From Pelagibacteraceae bacterium (GTDB lineage: Bacteria > Pseudomonadota > Alphaproteobacteria > Pelagibacterales > Pelagibacteraceae): a stretch of 64,000 nucleotides of DNA. The first letter of the stretch is position 1; each line of letters opens with the position of its first letter. Made by a program: the position numbers and the translations under genes. The stretch spans positions 1 through 64,000 of the forward strand of contig VTPP01000001.1 in NCBI GenBank assembly GCA_008638225.1, written 5' to 3'. The notes under the pieces were generated by a model. That model did not search any database. It worked only from the letters and a program-made list of their open reading frames with translations, and was not told the origin of the DNA. Shown in pieces: positions 29,135 through 34,975 of the stretch.

Positions 29135-30307
29135 CTACTTCAATGCGTATAAAAGGTCTTCTTTAAGGTCGTTTACATCTTCAAGCCCAATAGATAGTCT
29201 AATTAAATTGGGAGTAATACCTAAGGATAATCTTGCTTCTTCACCAAGTATTTTGTGAGTTGTAGTTGTGGGGTGTGTAATCAAGGATTTGGCATCTCCT
29301 AGGTTATTTGAAATATCAAATATTTTTAATTTATTTATAAATTTAAATGCTTCCTTTTTTCCACCTTTAATTTTAAAGGCGATCATAGTTCCACCTGCGC
29401 TTTGTTGTTTTTTTGCTAGTAAATATTGTGAAAAAGATTTTAATCCAGGATAATAAACTTCTTCAATTTTTTTGTGTTTTTCTAAAAATTTTGAAATTTG
29501 TAATGCGTTATTAGATTGGGCAAGAACTCTAATTTTAATTGTCTCCAAACTTTTTAGCAAAATCCAGGCATTAAATGGGCTAATACAAGGACCGGTATGT
29601 CTTAAAAATGGTTTTAAAATATCTTCCTTAAATTTTTTTGTACTGCAGATAGCACCACCCATAGCTCTTCCTTGTCCATCTATATGCTTAGTTCCCGAAT
29701 AAATCACGATATCTGCTCCAAACTTAACAGGTTGCTGAAGTACTGGAGAGGCAAAAATATTGTCAACAATTGTTGTAATTTTATTTTTTTTAGCGATGGA
29801 ACAAACTTGCTTAATATCAATAATTTCTAAACATGGATTAGAAGGAGACTCGAAGAAAAATATTTTAGTATTATTTTTTATATTTTTTTTCCATTCATTA
29901 ATATTTGTTCCATCAACAAAAGTTACTTCAATACCAAACTTAGGCAGAATATCATTCAGTATGTATCTACAAGATCCAAAAAGTGCCGAAGCAGAGACTA
30001 CGTGATCTCCAGCTTGTAGTTGACACATCATGGATCCAAATACTGCTGCCATTCCGCTAGCAGTAGCAAAACAAGCTTCCGATCCATCTAACAAAGCCAA
30101 TCTTTGTTCAAACATTTCAATAGTTGGGTTAGCGTACCTAGTGTATTGAAATCCAGATTTTTCACCTTTGAAGATTGCTTCTGCCTGTTCAGCAGAATCG
30201 TAGACAAATCCAGAATTAATGAAAATTGCCTCTGAGGTTTCGTTAAAGTTAGATCTAGTTAGGCCGCCCCTAACTAGATTGGTATCTAACTTAAATTTTT
30301 TATTCAA
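29135..30307 (-). CDS. metZ: O-succinylhomoserine sulfhydrylase MetZ
   Basis: This PLP enzyme makes homocysteine directly from an O-acylhomoserine and sulfide. The 390 residues show the Cys/Met-metabolism family patterns YTRYANPTIEMFEQRLALLDG, ATASGMAAV, FFESPSNPC, VDNIFASPVLQQP and the PLP-lysine motif YSGTKHIDGQGRAMGG, a form typical of MetZ. It directly follows metE with no gap, as the last biosynthetic gene of a SAM-II-controlled metF-metE-metZ operon. O-acetylhomoserine as substrate cannot be excluded. Confidence 0.92.
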   Translation of the reverse strand: MNKKFKLDTNLVRGGLTRSNFNETSEAIFINSGFVYDSAEQAEAIFKGEKSGFQYTRYANPTIEMFEQRLALLDGSEACFATASGMAAVFGSMMCQLQAGDHVVSASALFGSCRYILNDILPKFGIEVTFVDGTNINEWKKNIKNNTKIFFFESPSNPCLEIIDIKQVCSIAKKNKITTIVDNIFASPVLQQPVKFGADIVIYSGTKHIDGQGRAMGGAICSTKKFKEDILKPFLRHTGPCISPFNAWILLKSLETIKIRVLAQSNNALQISKFLEKHKKIEEVYYPGLKSFSQYLLAKKQQSAGGTMIAFKIKGGKKEAFKFINKLKIFDISNNLGDAKSLITHPTTTTHKILGEEARLSLGITPNLIRLSIGLEDVNDLKEDLLYALK

Positions 30308-32566
30308 TTAATTTGCCCTCAATTCCTTAGCTGCATTAACCATTTTAGTTAAAGCATCAATTGTTTCTGGCCATCCTCTAGTTTTTAATCCACAATCTGG
30401 ATTAACCCATATTCTGCTAGGATCAATTAACTTAGATGCTTTTTGAATTAATTCTTTCATTTCATTTTGCGAAGGAACACGTGGCGAATGAATGTCATAC
30501 ACACCTGGCCCAACTTCATTTGGATATTTAAATTTTTCAAATGTAGTTAATAATTCCATTCTAGATCTTGATGTCTCAATAGAAATAACATCAGCATCCA
30601 ATGCCGCAATTGAGTCTATGATATCTTCAAATTCAGCATAACACATATGTGTGTGAATTTGAGTTTCATCTTTAACGACTGCTGCAGATATTTTGAAGCA
30701 ATCAACAGACCAGTTTAAATATTCTTTCCAGTCTTTTTTCTTTAGCGGTAAGCCTTCTCGCAATGCAGGCTCGTCAATTTGTATCATTCGGATACCGTTT
30801 TTTTCCAAGTCTTCCACTTCATCACGAATAGCAAAACCTATTTCTTGAGCAGTAAATTTTCTAGGCTGATCGTCTCGAACAAAAGACCACTGTAAAATAG
30901 TAATTGGACCGGTTAACATTCCTTTTACAATTTGTTTAGTTTGTTCTTGGGCAAACTTAGACCAACGTACGGTCATTGGCTTTGGTCTAGAAACATTACC
31001 AAATATAATCGGTGGTTTTACACAACGAGAACCATAGCTCTGAACGAAACCACTAGAAGTAAATGTAAATCCTTTGAGCTGTTCTCCGAAGTATTCTACC
31101 ATGTCGTTACGTTCAAATTCCCCATGAACAATAACATCAATTCCAATTTCTTCTTGTTTTCGAATTGTCTCAATTGTTTTCTCTTCCAAAAACTTATCAT
31201 AGCTTTGTTCGTCGAGTTCACCTCGTTTAAATTTAGCTCTTGCCTGTCTGACATCAGTAGTTTGTGGGAAAGATCCGATAGTTGTTGTTGGGTATTTAGG
31301 TAAAGCAAATATATTCTTTTGCAGTTTAGCTCTATCTGCATATGTGGACTTTCTATCAACAATAGATTTATTAATCGTTTTAATTCTATTTTTGACAGCA
31401 TCATCATGAATTAGTTTTGAAGTTTTTCTATCTTCAACATCAGCAGCATTTTGTTTTAGCTCTGCTTCATGACTACCTTTATTGATAAAACATTTAATTA
31501 CATTAAGTTCCTGCAATTTTTGTTTAGCAAATGATAACCATCTTTTAATTTCAGCAGGAACTTTTTGTTCTAAAGCTAAATCGTAAGGTGAGTGTAATAA
31601 TGGACAAGAAGATGCGATAATAATATCTCCAGAAGTATGACTTTTAATAAAATCAATTTTTTCTTGTAAGTTAGCCTTCCATACATTTCTTCCGTCTACT
31701 AAACCAAGTGATAATTTTTTATTCGAGTTTTTTACATATTCTTTATTTTTAGTTCCACGAACTAAATCTAAATGAACAGCATCAACTGAACTTGCAAACA
31801 CTTCTTTTTTTATATCTTCATTAAGATCTTCAAAATAAGTAGTAAGTAATATTTTGCTTGATCCTGCAGAGTCTTTAAGTTGATTAAGAGTATTTTTAAT
31901 TTTAGAGACCACATTTGAATCTAAGTCCTTTACTAAAATAGGTTCATCAATTTGTATCCATTCAGCTCCAAGTTCAGAGAATTTTTTAATAATTTCTTTA
32001 TAAACAGGAAGAACTTTGTCCAATAAATCAATAGTGTTTATCCCATCAACACCTTTAGCCAATAATAGAAAAGTTAAAGGTCCTAAAATAATAGGCTTAG
32101 TATTAAATCCAGCTTTTTTAGCTTCTTCATATTCAGCAAATGGTTTGTGAGAACTTAATTTAAATGTTTGATCTTTAGATAATTCAGGAACTAAATAATG
32201 GTAATTTGTATCAAACCACTTAGTCATTTCTAATGCTGGAACATCTAACTCAGTTGTTTGTGAGCCACGTGCCATAGCAAAATAAGTTTTAAGATTTACC
32301 TGATTGCCATCCCATTTATATCTTCTTGGAACCGCTCCTAATAAGCAAATTGCATCTAATACCTGATCGTAAAAAGAAAAATCATTAGAGGAAATAAGAT
32401 CAACACCACAATCTTTTTGAGTTTGCCAGTTTTGTTTTCTTAAATCTTTAGCAACATTGTTAAGATCCTGCTCTGTGATGTCACCTTTCCAAAATTCTTC
32501 TAGTGCTTTTTTTAATTCTCTTTTAGGACCAATTCTTGGGTATCCAATAGATGCTATTTGTATCAT
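30308..32566 (-). CDS. metE: Cobalamin-independent methionine synthase MetE
   Basis: MetE transfers the methyl group of 5-methyltetrahydrofolate (polyglutamate) to homocysteine without B12. The 752 residues form two related barrels: the N-terminal half starts SIGYPRIGPKRELKKALE, the C-terminal half has TTIGSFPQT, HGEFERNDMVEYFGEQL, QIDEPALREGLPL and the zinc ligands in THMCYAEF and NPDCGLKTRGW. Length is normal. It overlaps metF by 4 bases and abuts metZ. B12-independent synthesis would spare cobalamin in a marine setting. Confidence 0.97.
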   Translation of the reverse strand: MIQIASIGYPRIGPKRELKKALEEFWKGDITEQDLNNVAKDLRKQNWQTQKDCGVDLISSNDFSFYDQVLDAICLLGAVPRRYKWDGNQVNLKTYFAMARGSQTTELDVPALEMTKWFDTNYHYLVPELSKDQTFKLSSHKPFAEYEEAKKAGFNTKPIILGPLTFLLLAKGVDGINTIDLLDKVLPVYKEIIKKFSELGAEWIQIDEPILVKDLDSNVVSKIKNTLNQLKDSAGSSKILLTTYFEDLNEDIKKEVFASSVDAVHLDLVRGTKNKEYVKNSNKKLSLGLVDGRNVWKANLQEKIDFIKSHTSGDIIIASSCPLLHSPYDLALEQKVPAEIKRWLSFAKQKLQELNVIKCFINKGSHEAELKQNAADVEDRKTSKLIHDDAVKNRIKTINKSIVDRKSTYADRAKLQKNIFALPKYPTTTIGSFPQTTDVRQARAKFKRGELDEQSYDKFLEEKTIETIRKQEEIGIDVIVHGEFERNDMVEYFGEQLKGFTFTSSGFVQSYGSRCVKPPIIFGNVSRPKPMTVRWSKFAQEQTKQIVKGMLTGPITILQWSFVRDDQPRKFTAQEIGFAIRDEVEDLEKNGIRMIQIDEPALREGLPLKKKDWKEYLNWSVDCFKISAAVVKDETQIHTHMCYAEFEDIIDSIAALDADVISIETSRSRMELLTTFEKFKYPNEVGPGVYDIHSPRVPSQNEMKELIQKASKLIDPSRIWVNPDCGLKTRGWPETIDALTKMVNAAKELRAN

Positions 32567-33459
32567 GTTCTAACTTCTCCTTTAGTTTGATTGATTTGAT
32601 TTGAACTTTTTTGCAGGGATAACAATCTTGAGCATACTGCAAAAGTTAATTCATATTTATTTAATGTATAAAAATGAAACTCATTTACTTCCTCTTTTTT
32701 TAATTCTTTTACCAAGTCACTTGCTAAACTTGCTCCAACAAATTGCTGAACTTCAGGAGTATCATCCAGGTTTGAAAATTCATTAGCTATCCAATCAGGA
32801 ATTGAGGCTCCACACATTGCACTAAAATTCTGAATTTTTTTAAAATTTGATATGGGCATAATTCCTGGAATAAGTTGAGCTTTGATACCTGCGTTTGTTA
32901 CCGTGTCTCGATATCTTAAAAAAATATCTTTATCGAAAAAATATTGTGTAATAATTTTATCAGCACCTGCATCAACTTTTCTTTTTAAGTTATCAATATC
33001 ATCTTGTTTATTTTTAGAGTCAGGATGTATCTCTGGATATCCACCAACGGCAATTTCAAAATTGGCAAGTTTTTTTAAACCAGCGACCATATCAGCAGCA
33101 TTGATATAACCAGTTGAGTGAGGATAATATTTTTTACCAGGCTCTCTTACATCACCTCGTAAAGCTACTATTTTTTTAACTCCTTTTTCAAACCAACCTA
33201 AAGCCAAATCATTAATTTCATCTTTGGACATATCTACACACGTTAAATGTCCTGCAACAGGAACGTGAGAATCTTTGTTAATTCTTTTTACAAATGAATC
33301 GCTTTTTAATCGCTCTCCACCTCCTGCACCAAAGGTAACTGAAAAAAACTGAGGATTAAAGTTTTCTAATTTTTTTATACTTTCCCAAGTTTTTTCCTCA
33401 GCAATAGGATCTTTTGCTGGAAAAAATTCAAAACTTAACTTTAATTCATTCTCGCTCAT
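32563..33459 (-). CDS. metF: 5,10-methylenetetrahydrofolate reductase MetF
   Basis: This FAD enzyme makes 5-methyltetrahydrofolate, the methyl donor for MetE. It has FEFFPAKDP near the N-terminus, SVTFGAGG, HLTCVDMS, LRGDVREPG, a GGYPEIHPDS motif and GADKIITQYFFD. The ATG at 33459 (protein MSENELKLSFEFF, 298 residues) is preferred; the frame is open to a TTG at 33504, but that TTG lies in the terminator tail and adds an unconserved extension. It is the first gene behind the SAM-II leader and overlaps metE by 4 bases. Confidence 0.94.
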   Translation of the reverse strand: MSENELKLSFEFFPAKDPIAEEKTWESIKKLENFNPQFFSVTFGAGGGERLKSDSFVKRINKDSHVPVAGHLTCVDMSKDEINDLALGWFEKGVKKIVALRGDVREPGKKYYPHSTGYINAADMVAGLKKLANFEIAVGGYPEIHPDSKNKQDDIDNLKRKVDAGADKIITQYFFDKDIFLRYRDTVTNAGIKAQLIPGIMPISNFKKIQNFSAMCGASIPDWIANEFSNLDDTPEVQQFVGASLASDLVKELKKEEVNEFHFYTLNKYELTFAVCSRLLSLQKSSNQINQTKGEVRT

Positions 33460-33502
33460 AATTTTTATGATCAATTTTTCGATAGTTTTTGTTGGAAATT
33501 CC

Positions 33503-33531
33503 AAAAAAAAACCACCGGCTAAAGCGGTGGT
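33503..33531 (-). terminator. Intrinsic terminator of the met leader (riboswitch expression platform)
   Basis: Read on the minus strand, ACCACCG (33531-33525) pairs with CGGTGGT (33517-33511) around a 7-base loop, and a run of eight or more T residues follows (33510-33503). It stands 44 bases before the metF start. The loop plus part of the stem (33526-33518) is perfectly complementary over 9 bases to 33546-33538 at the 3' edge of the aptamer, giving a competing antiterminator. Confidence 0.85.
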
Positions 33532-33532
33532 A

Positions 33533-33592
33533 AGGGTCGCTTTAGCTGGATTTATAAAGCGCCCGCAATTTGAACTAAATCAGCGCTTGAGA
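33533..33592 (-). promoter_or_regulatory. SAM-II riboswitch aptamer controlling metF-metE-metZ
   Basis: On the minus strand the segment reads AAGCGCTGATTTAG, then TTGCGGGCGCTTTATAAAT, then CCAGCTAAAGCG. This matches the SAM-II pattern CGCTGATTTA...TTGC..GCGC...ATAAA..AGCTAAA. P1 is AAGCGC/GCGCTT (6 bp), and the loop TTTAG can pair with CTAAA of AGCTAAA as the pseudoknot. SAM-II senses S-adenosylmethionine and lies upstream of methionine genes in alphaproteobacteria. Here it precedes an intrinsic terminator, so SAM should cause premature termination. Aptamer edges are approximate. Confidence 0.92.
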
Positions 33593-33611
33593 TTGTTTAT
33601 AAAAAAAATCC

Positions 33612-33636
33612 CAATAAGTAAAGCCTTTACTTATTG
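33612..33636 (-). terminator. Additional hairpin in the met leader, upstream of SAM-II
   Basis: CAATAAGTAAAG and CTTTACTTATTG form a near-perfect 12-bp inverted repeat with one central base (in practice a shorter stem and small loop). On the minus strand it is followed by GGA and eight T residues (33609-33601). It may be an early terminator or pause site between promoter and aptamer. The T-run is 3 bases away from the stem, so terminator strength is uncertain. Confidence 0.45.
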
Positions 33637-33654
33637 TTAGTGATTGTGAGCACT

Positions 33655-33684
33655 ATCGTAAAAACTTTACACCAGTTTGTGCAA
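33655..33684 (-). promoter_or_regulatory. Candidate sigma70 promoter of the met operon
   Basis: Minus strand TTGCAC (33684-33679) and TACGAT (33660-33655) with an 18-base spacer. Initiation near 33648 would produce a leader of about 190 bases containing the extra hairpin, the SAM-II aptamer and its terminator. It is the best match between the aptamer and the divergent regulator gene. Confidence 0.5.
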
Positions 33685-33800
33685 TAAAAAATTTTGCCGT
33701 ATGATTTATTTTTAAGAGCATTGCTTTTTTCTGTTTGTTTTTGACGATTCTCGAAGGTAGATTTTTTAAAGATTAACAATGGATCTTTGATGAATATTTT

Positions 33801-33882
33801 ACTAAACTATTTAAGTTTAGTAGAAAATTAAGTTAAAAATTAGCTTATATTATTTAATTAATAGAATTTTATGCTATTAATT
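33801..33882. repeat. Two inverted repeats upstream of the AsnC/Lrp gene (candidate operators)
   Basis: ACTAAACT (33801-33808) and AGTTTAGT (33814-33821) form an 8-bp inverted repeat with a 5-base spacer. AATTAATAG (33856-33864) and CTATTAATT (33874-33882) form a perfect 9-bp inverted repeat with a 9-base spacer, ending 8 bases before the ATG of the regulator. AsnC/Lrp proteins bind AT-rich dyads and often autoregulate, so these are reasonable operator candidates. Chance dyads are not rare in such AT-rich DNA. Confidence 0.4.
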
Positions 33883-33890
33883 TGCATAAT

Positions 33891-34367
33891 ATGAAAAAAA
33901 ATAGCAAATTAAACGATATTGATAAGAAAATACTATCTGTTTTTCAAGAAAATGCGGATATTCCCATAGCTGAATTATCTAAGAAGGTGAATTTGTCAGC
34001 AACTCCTTGTTGGGCCAGAATTAATAAACTCTATAAACAAGGCTTTATTACAAAAAAAGTTGCAGTTGTGGATAGGCTAAAACTAAATTTGTCTGTAGTT
34101 GCTTTTGTTCAGGTTAAAACAAGCAATCACAACATAACTTGGGCAAATAAATTTGTTTCTGTAGTAAATGATATTCCTGAAGTTGTAGAGTTTTACAGAC
34201 TAAGCGGTTCAATTGATTACTTATTAAAAGTATTGGTTCCTAGCATCGAACATTTTGATAAATTTTATAAAAAATTAACGAGTAAAATTGATTTAACAGA
34301 TGTCACAACCAGTTTTTCAATGGAAGAAATTAAGCAGACCACAAGTTTACCACTAGATTACATTTAA
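33891..34367 (+). CDS. AsnC/Lrp-family transcriptional regulator
   Basis: A 158-residue regulator: an N-terminal helix-turn-helix (LNDIDKKILSVFQENADIPIAE, then LSKKVNLSATPCWARINKLYKQGFI) followed by a RAM ligand-binding domain (about 65-155) with the pattern VVEFYRLSGSIDYLLKVLV. The ATG at 33891 is preferred over an in-frame TTG three codons upstream. It shares one base with the LysE-type exporter gene, so regulator and exporter are co-expressed. By analogy with Lrp-LysE pairs it probably senses an amino acid and controls its export. It is divergent from the met operon. Confidence 0.9.
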   Translation: MKKNSKLNDIDKKILSVFQENADIPIAELSKKVNLSATPCWARINKLYKQGFITKKVAVVDRLKLNLSVVAFVQVKTSNHNITWANKFVSVVNDIPEVVEFYRLSGSIDYLLKVLVPSIEHFDKFYKKLTSKIDLTDVTTSFSMEEIKQTTSLPLDYI

Positions 34368-34975
34368 TGTTATCTGAATATTATTTTCTGTTTCTCCAAA
34401 TAATATTCTTTATGTTTATTACACCTGGAGCTCCGAGAATTTTAATTATGTCTCAATCAATAAATTATGGTTTTAAAAAAAGTCTATGGACCGCACTTGG
34501 TGATATAACCGCTAATACAATTCAGATAATCATAGTCTTAGTGGGACTGAATACTGTAATAAAAATTTTTCCTGATTTGGTTTTTTATTTTAAATGGATG
34601 GGAATTAGTTATCTATTATATATTGCATATGGCTATTTGCGGAGCACTAGCCAAATAAAATTAAAAATAAAAGTAAAAACTAAATCCATACAATCATTAT
34701 TTTTAGATGGTTTTCTAATCGCTTTTTTTGGACCAAAAGCAATTATTTTTTTTATTACCATTTTTCCAACATTCATTCCTATTGGTGAATATTACTTAAT
34801 TAATGTTTTTATATTTTGGATTACTTATGTGACTTTGGATTTTATTACGTTAGCTACTTACTCTAGCATAGCCGATAAAATATCTGCTAGCCTAGCATCT
34901 AATCCGTATACTCTAAATTATATATCGGCTGCTGCTTTGCTTATTATTAGTATTGTAATTGGATTTAAAGTATAA
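34367..34975 (+). CDS. LysE/RhtB-family amino acid exporter
   Basis: A 202-residue protein with about six membrane segments and the LysE/RhtB start FITPGAPRILIMSQSINYGFKKSLWTALGD, which is close to the family TPGP motif though with Ala before the Pro. It should export an amino acid or derivative from the cytoplasm. It overlaps the AsnC-type gene by one base (TAATG) and converges on the DUF1850 gene, meeting it end to end. Substrate unknown. Confidence 0.85.
   Translation: MLSEYYFLFLQIIFFMFITPGAPRILIMSQSINYGFKKSLWTALGDITANTIQIIIVLVGLNTVIKIFPDLVFYFKWMGISYLLYIAYGYLRSTSQIKLKIKVKTKSIQSLFLDGFLIAFFGPKAIIFFITIFPTFIPIGEYYLINVFIFWITYVTLDFITLATYSSIADKISASLASNPYTLNYISAAALLIISIVIGFKV

Follow-up and report, generated by a model that had tools for sequence, protein, structure and literature searches.

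A predicted SAM-II riboswitch with a terminator/antiterminator hairpin swap conserved across SAR11 in the leader of the metF-metE-metZ operon

Results

Through analysis of the window (the whole stretch of 64,000 nucleotides from contig VTPP01000001.1 of a Pelagibacteraceae bacterium), three methionine genes have been identified on the minus strand: metF, encoding methylenetetrahydrofolate reductase (32563..33459, TIGR00676), metE, encoding the cobalamin-independent methionine synthase (30308..32566, TIGR01371), and metZ, encoding O-succinylhomoserine sulfhydrylase (29135..30307, TIGR01325). The gene names of the first-pass annotation have been confirmed, and the order metF-metE-metZ is kept in all 12 loci compared. 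A mechanical open reading frame call starts metF at a TTG (33504); the ATG at 33459 was judged the best placement instead. A divergent Lrp/AsnC-type regulator and a LysE/RhtB-type amino-acid exporter are located upstream of the operon (33882-34975). The regulator adjoins metF in locus L013 and lies about 3.4 kb off in L015; in the remaining loci compared, none was detected near metF.

The leader of metF, whose minus strand contains TCAAGCGCTGATTTAGTTCAAATTGCGGGCGCTTTATAAATCCAGCTAAAGCGACCCTTACCACCGCTTTAGCCGGTGGTTTTTTTTT, carries a SAM-II aptamer at 33587-33537 (minus strand, as for all leader elements below). In silico analysis revealed the characteristic features of this class: (i) a P1 stem read from the sequence (AGCGC 33587-33583 with GCGCT 33562-33558; span 33558..33587), enclosing the typical GA(U/G)UU loop, here L1 (GATTT 33581-33577), and the UUGC strand (TTGC 33568-33565); (ii) an H-type pseudoknot P2/P2a (33537..33573), in which P2, with its GCUAAA motif, is formed by C33565-G33546, G33566-C33545, U33567-A33543 and U33568-A33542, and the 3' helix P2a is short, with the two pairs C33572-G33538 and U33573-A33537; (iii) a position upstream of methionine/SAM genes in an alphaproteobacterium. 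The 3' strand of P2, GCUAAAGCG (33538..33546), contains nucleotides of the SAM site and is also the predicted 5' strand of an antiterminator. About 78 nt, including a terminator, lie between the end of the aptamer and the metF ATG, and no good Shine-Dalgarno sequence is present within the aptamer.

The Rfam SAM-II model (RF00521, SAM_alpha) matches 33521..33596 along its full length (model positions 1-79) with 25.6 bits, at E = 9e-4 in a 461-bp stretch and E = 4.7e-4 in the 1.02-Mb genome, where it is the best match and the runner-up has an E of about 1. The covariance search that the first-pass annotation had put forward for its SAM-II assignment is therefore divided in its outcome, since a full-model match is obtained and the score falls below the gathering score of 36 bits; a default Rfam scan at that score gave no match in the metF leader. 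The assignment itself is upheld by the genome-wide rank of the match and by conservation of the aptamer in relatives. The gathering score is reached in none of 247 genomes of the same family (SAR11), 196 of which have a match at E up to 0.1; in a sample of 143 genomes from across the class, 57 pass it. The bhmT SAM-II aptamer of “Candidatus Pelagibacter ubique” HTCC1062, a reported SAM binder, is unlisted by the RF00521 search at E up to 1. As these SAR11 versions lie below the gathering score, the cut-off is blind to them, and a sub-threshold score is no ground to exclude SAR11 members. A covariance model, R1, built with the metF-leader sequence included, gives 102 bits at the leader versus 13.8 at the next site in the window. 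The SAM-V model (RF01826) has no match at the leader at E up to 10 and no significant match in the genome.

Behind the aptamer, 43 nt before metF (ATG 33459), an intrinsic terminator is located (ACCACCG-CUUUAGC-CGGUGGU, 33531-33511), consisting of a 7-bp stem and a 7-nt loop followed by a U-run (T33510-33503). It is the sole terminator-like site in 33440-33900, where shuffled sequences would lead one to expect 0.1. The segment GCTAAAGCG (33546-33538) of the aptamer and CGCTTTAGC (33526-33518) of the terminator, both on the minus strand, form 9 of 9 Watson-Crick pairs; in the RNA, this is the alternative pairing of the aptamer 3' strand with the terminator that is typical of attenuators, its 3' strand being CGCUUUAGC (33518..33526), the top of the terminator stem together with the loop. 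With CCA (33549-33547) opposed to CGG (33517-33515), the antiterminator reaches 11 of 12 pairs with an A.C mismatch. Among 60 control terminators drawn from the window's own and related DNA, 59 form no more than 5 contiguous Watson-Crick pairs with the aptamer strand, versus 9 here, and one reaches 13 bp, which is unexplained; with only 60 controls and that one match, the empirical p is no lower than about 0.017. Judged from their sequences, antiterminator and terminator are mutually exclusive, and both are conserved with the aptamer. The first-pass annotation had described this terminator and the 9-bp pairing; every coordinate it gave proved correct, base for base, and both elements recur in the relatives described below.

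A candidate promoter of weak quality precedes the aptamer (TTTACT 33622-33617, a 15-nt spacer and TATAAA 33601-33596; 33596..33622), and relatives show TTGACT at the position of TTTACT. A consensus promoter scan made no call on the right strand near the start, so this tentative -10/-35 assignment draws only on comparison with relatives. The putative -35 region is overlapped by a near-perfect 23-bp palindrome, AATAAGTAAAGGCTTTACTTATT, followed by GGGATTTTTTTT (33613-33635), the T-run of which overlaps the putative promoter spacer. The palindrome was considered as an operator or a first attenuator and set aside: it has a single copy in the genome, is partly kept in L013 and is absent from the other relatives.

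MetF searches of named genomes returned 12 loci, all SAR11-like (Pelagibacteraceae, Fonsibacter and related single cells). In each of the 11 loci that include an upstream region, an aptamer and a terminator are present 19-51 nt before the ATG. The MetF proteins of the 11 named relatives are 59-98% identical, and the 11 metF orthologues keep the antiterminator as well, with 8-9 of its 9 pairs. In a family-wide set of 38 distinct SAR11 leaders with the same module, the following gene is metF, a bhmT-like homocysteine methyltransferase, an O-acetylhomoserine sulfhydrylase or a core-methionine-synthase-like gene. When these leaders are aligned, pairing of P1, P2, P2a and the terminator, taken together, is kept in 99.3% of cells, compared with 49% or less in slid controls; P1 alone is paired in 97.9%, and the terminator stem has 7 of 7 pairs in 38 of 38 leaders. 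P2 is invariant. Two-sided changes occur at three pairs, namely two in P1 (AU/UA and CG/UA) and the outer pair of P2a, which is UA in 30 of the 38 leaders and AU in 7, a compensatory exchange. For the antiterminator, the paired share of cells is 89.9%, versus 22-52% in slid registers, and each leader has at least 10 of the 12 pairs. In one same-genus species (L081, G032:C1:693650-694730), the switch precedes a short core-methionine-synthase-like gene and not metF, and the antiterminator loop is weaker (CUUUCUU).

A terminator loop needs no fixed sequence, yet on these alignments its complementarity to the aptamer is kept far beyond need. Because the aptamer strand GCUAAAGCG is invariant, most antiterminator pairs are unable to covary, and no statistical covariation could be scored in the 38-leader alignment; changes were for this reason sought more widely. 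The R1 model detects the module, or elements related to it, in 371 of 397 genomes of the family at E up to 1e-5, the weakest matches including other SAM-II types. The fetched loci yielded 94 distinct SAR11 elements selected by the string GCUAAAGCG, which is thus invariant in 94 of 94 by choice and is invariant also in the unselected metF orthologues. The best antiterminator duplex has 9-13 pairs in all 94 elements, with no fewer than 7 of the 9 core pairs. The pair that flanks GCUAAA on the outside is A-U in 9 elements and U-A in 4, and near-identical terminators follow the aptamer accordingly: GCUUCAGCUGG occurs with CCAG aptamers (L232, L253), and the partner of GCUUCAGCAGG is a CCUG aptamer (L270). 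Most duplexes become weaker when aptamers of one group (A-U or U-A) are combined with terminators of the other.

Ligand-free nested folding, with energies that include neither pseudoknots nor SAM, favours the antiterminator in 10 of the 12 metF leaders, by 1.3-3.8 kcal/mol, and in 72 of the 94 SAR11 elements. The expectation of the first-pass annotation that the antiterminator wins when SAM is absent agrees with these counts, but not with the window copy at equilibrium, whose optimum combines the terminator with an alternative hairpin (-25.7 versus -23.4 kcal/mol for the antiterminator fold, 2.3 better). This hairpin (33534..33564 in the minimum free energy fold) pairs GGGCGCUUUA (33564-33555) with UAAAGCG (33544-33538) and CCC (33536-33534), and excludes P1 and the antiterminator together. 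Locus L013 also favours the terminator with the alternative hairpin, marginally, and a terminator state accompanied by a hairpin of this type is found in 6 of the 94 elements. If P1 is kept in the window copy, the terminator fold has -19.2 kcal/mol and the antiterminator wins over it. In growing chains of the window copy, the antiterminator forms first and lasts up to the final two bases of the terminator stem. As the equilibrium fold favours the terminator, switching in the window copy is, on this modelling, probably kinetic.

Discussion

The arrangement described above is best read as a SAM-II riboswitch controlling metF-metE-metZ by transcription attenuation, a reading to which we assign a probability of about 0.87. 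In the proposed mechanism, the 5' end of the transcript would fold into P1, and with SAM bound the pseudoknot P2/P2a would hold GCUAAAGCG, so that the downstream hairpin could form and RNA polymerase would stop in the U-run. With little SAM, GCUAAAGCG would pair with CGCUUUAGC as the latter emerges, with 7 nt of the terminator stem still to be made, and the resulting duplex would block the terminator hairpin and let the operon be transcribed. That SAM stabilises P2, and through the sequestration of GCUAAAGCG leads to termination, we infer by analogy with established SAM-II biochemistry. Since forming the antiterminator uses up some of the SAM-binding strand, the switch probably decides once, during transcription, and not at the equilibrium of the finished RNA.

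Many SAM-II aptamers stand before terminators (PMC1273637, PMC2258182, PMC9373788), and the SAM-II member of SAM-II/SAM-V tandems has been described as always preceding one (PMC9481103). Since SAM-II with a terminator is documented, the class and its OFF logic are known, and the metF-leader element is an additional member. Like the SAM-II attenuator of S. meliloti metZ (PMC9373788) and the original SAM-II set, it has P1 and an H-type pseudoknot with the same conserved pocket strings, a promoter just before P1 (a weak candidate in the metF leader), a terminator between P2 and the gene, and methionine genes under a predicted OFF switch. In contrast to the known set, it scores below the Rfam gathering cut-off. 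A further difference concerns the switching strand: the 24 scored non-SAR11 alphaproteobacterial terminators are without GCUAAA pairing (2-5 contiguous Watson-Crick pairs) and show visible complementarity to the GGUCG tail, whereas the SAR11 antiterminator takes the SAM-binding strand itself.

An arrangement in which aptamer and terminator are real and the antiterminator has no function, SAM acting through mRNA stability or ribosome access while a constitutive terminator releases a small RNA, appears unlikely. It has a precedent in S. meliloti metA, where no SAM control was predicted for the terminator downstream of SAM-II, which reduces expression strongly (PMC9373788), and it fits the terminator that the window copy keeps at equilibrium without ligand. 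It does not fit the conserved complementarity of the terminator loop to the aptamer, with the A-U/U-A exchange at the flanking pair, nor the preference of the relatives for the antiterminator fold; the distance of some 78 nt to the ATG and the lack of a good Shine-Dalgarno sequence in the aptamer also speak against it.

Less probable still is an aptamer of SAM-V type, or another aptamer resembling SAM-II, that acts on translation or responds to another ligand. The low RF00521 score and the 2-bp P2a, which resembles that of SAM-V (PMC6061858), could be taken that way, but RF01826 fails to match at E up to 10 where the SAM-V beside HTCC1062 bhmT gives 84.4 bits, and SAM-V lies no more than about 10 nt from the start codon (PMC2704228), while the metF aptamer is split off from it by a terminator. 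A chance resemblance, with an ordinary palindrome and a terminator upstream of metF, might be suspected in AT-rich DNA from a sub-threshold Rfam score; it is already refuted by the occurrence of the element at the same place in 11 relatives and by the compensatory changes, and the R1 scores (102 versus 13.8 bits, from a model that includes the metF leader) point the same way.

The attenuation reading bears on a second SAR11 leader. The Pelagibacter bhmT SAM-II aptamer binds SAM with a KD of 1.2 uM and has been described as terminating transcription (PMC5069961). Within the full-length bhmT leader, the SAM-II domain was found unresponsive to SAM by Feng et al. 2024, who held the linker responsible, the reason being not understood (PMC11508383); Poiata 2009, as cited in that paper, likewise saw the domain lose its SAM response in the full-length RNA. 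Locus L154 (G026:C1:1126300-1127900, minus strand) contains a bhmT leader whose position equals the published HTCC1062 coordinates, and all three antisense oligo sites of PMC11508383 match at the published numbering, from which we infer that this genome is that of HTCC1062. Like the metF leader, it has the GCUAAAGCG strand, an ACCACCG..GGUGGU terminator and an antiterminator; unlike it, it has a second, SAM-V switch downstream (PMC2704228, PMC11508383), and the genes differ. In L154, CCUGCUAAAGCG (41-52) pairs with CGCUUUAG-A-CAGG (66-78) over 12 bp with one bulge, at a pairing probability of 0.99. In this model, the bhmT antiterminator would occupy the SAM site, which may explain the SAM-blindness of the full-length RNA. 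The oligos that restore binding cover 83-102 and 98-117, not 66-78 (PMC11508383); conjecturally, oligo 3, which starts beside the terminator stem, might stack on this stem and so stabilise it.

A third case is the metX leader. A 52-nt SAM-II RNA has served in biophysical work, and we take it to be the crystallised RNA of PDB 2QWY (Sargasso Sea metagenome metX). Two genomes contain its sequence, given in PMC8494917, without any change, and 42 others, all of one genus, contain it with few changes. Behind the aptamer, both exact copies have an intrinsic terminator, GCCCAGUUUAGCUGGGC-U9, and then ATGAAT, which is likely the metX start. Inside the terminator region, an in-frame AUG follows GGGG; it would add MPSLAGLFFW, and this supposed start codon is missing in many relatives. 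The aptamer fold is that of the metF leader, and the terminator loop is again complementary to the aptamer, UUUAGCU facing AGCUAAA (L033:1525-1595; also L032, L038, L048 and L053), whereas the terminator stem is GCCCAG and the published mode is translational; reviews call the metX switch translational and rare among SAM-II in this respect (PMC6061858, PMC10907184). The equilibrium fold of the metX leader favours the terminator, with a pairing probability of 0.97, so that SAM control is less clear than in the metF type.

Other leaders of the family differ in layout. In genus g4, metX leaders (L042, L045, L050, L059, L062, L069, L102 and others) lack a hairpin between the aptamer and a conserved stretch of 5-9 U (GCUAAAnAAGUUUUUUUUCUCACAAUUC) that comes directly after it; P2a of the pseudoknot would adjoin this stretch, as though the aptamer could act as its own terminator stem. 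In L055, L086, L087, L089, L105, L106 and L052, SAM-II-like aptamers end in GCUAAAGGAGG-CAAAUG, with a ribosome-binding site in the aptamer tail, before a small open reading frame, and from their sequence these look translational. In L106, a gene for an FAD-dependent oxidoreductase (sarcosine/glycine-oxidase-like) follows within the fetched stretch. A “novel riboswitch” near ordL has been described in PMC5069961.

Conclusion

An antiterminator that destroys the SAM site would imply that the aptamer reads SAM only before the terminator region is made. A general view, in which SAR11 SAM-II elements are one-shot co-transcriptional sensors, this property accounts for the SAM-blindness of bhmT, and the “translational” metX (2QWY) aptamer really works with an intrinsic terminator, is offered tentatively, at slightly less than even odds. 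If the metX leader does end in a SAM-controlled terminator, the standard translational example of SAM-II would need re-examination. For bhmT, the conserved antiterminator predicts SAM-blindness at equilibrium and recovery during transcription, and the broader value of the finding lies in this testable account: an antiterminator found SAR11-wide may explain the puzzle.

SAR11 cells rank with the most abundant of surface waters and possess few regulators; a complete circuit from SAM to methionine, readable from sequence, is therefore useful. By alignment, the swap between terminator and antiterminator hairpins is conserved across SAR11, and in the aquatic bacterium studied here, which is of SAR11 type, the sensor in the metF leader should shut off the methionine-synthesis operon when S-adenosylmethionine is plentiful.
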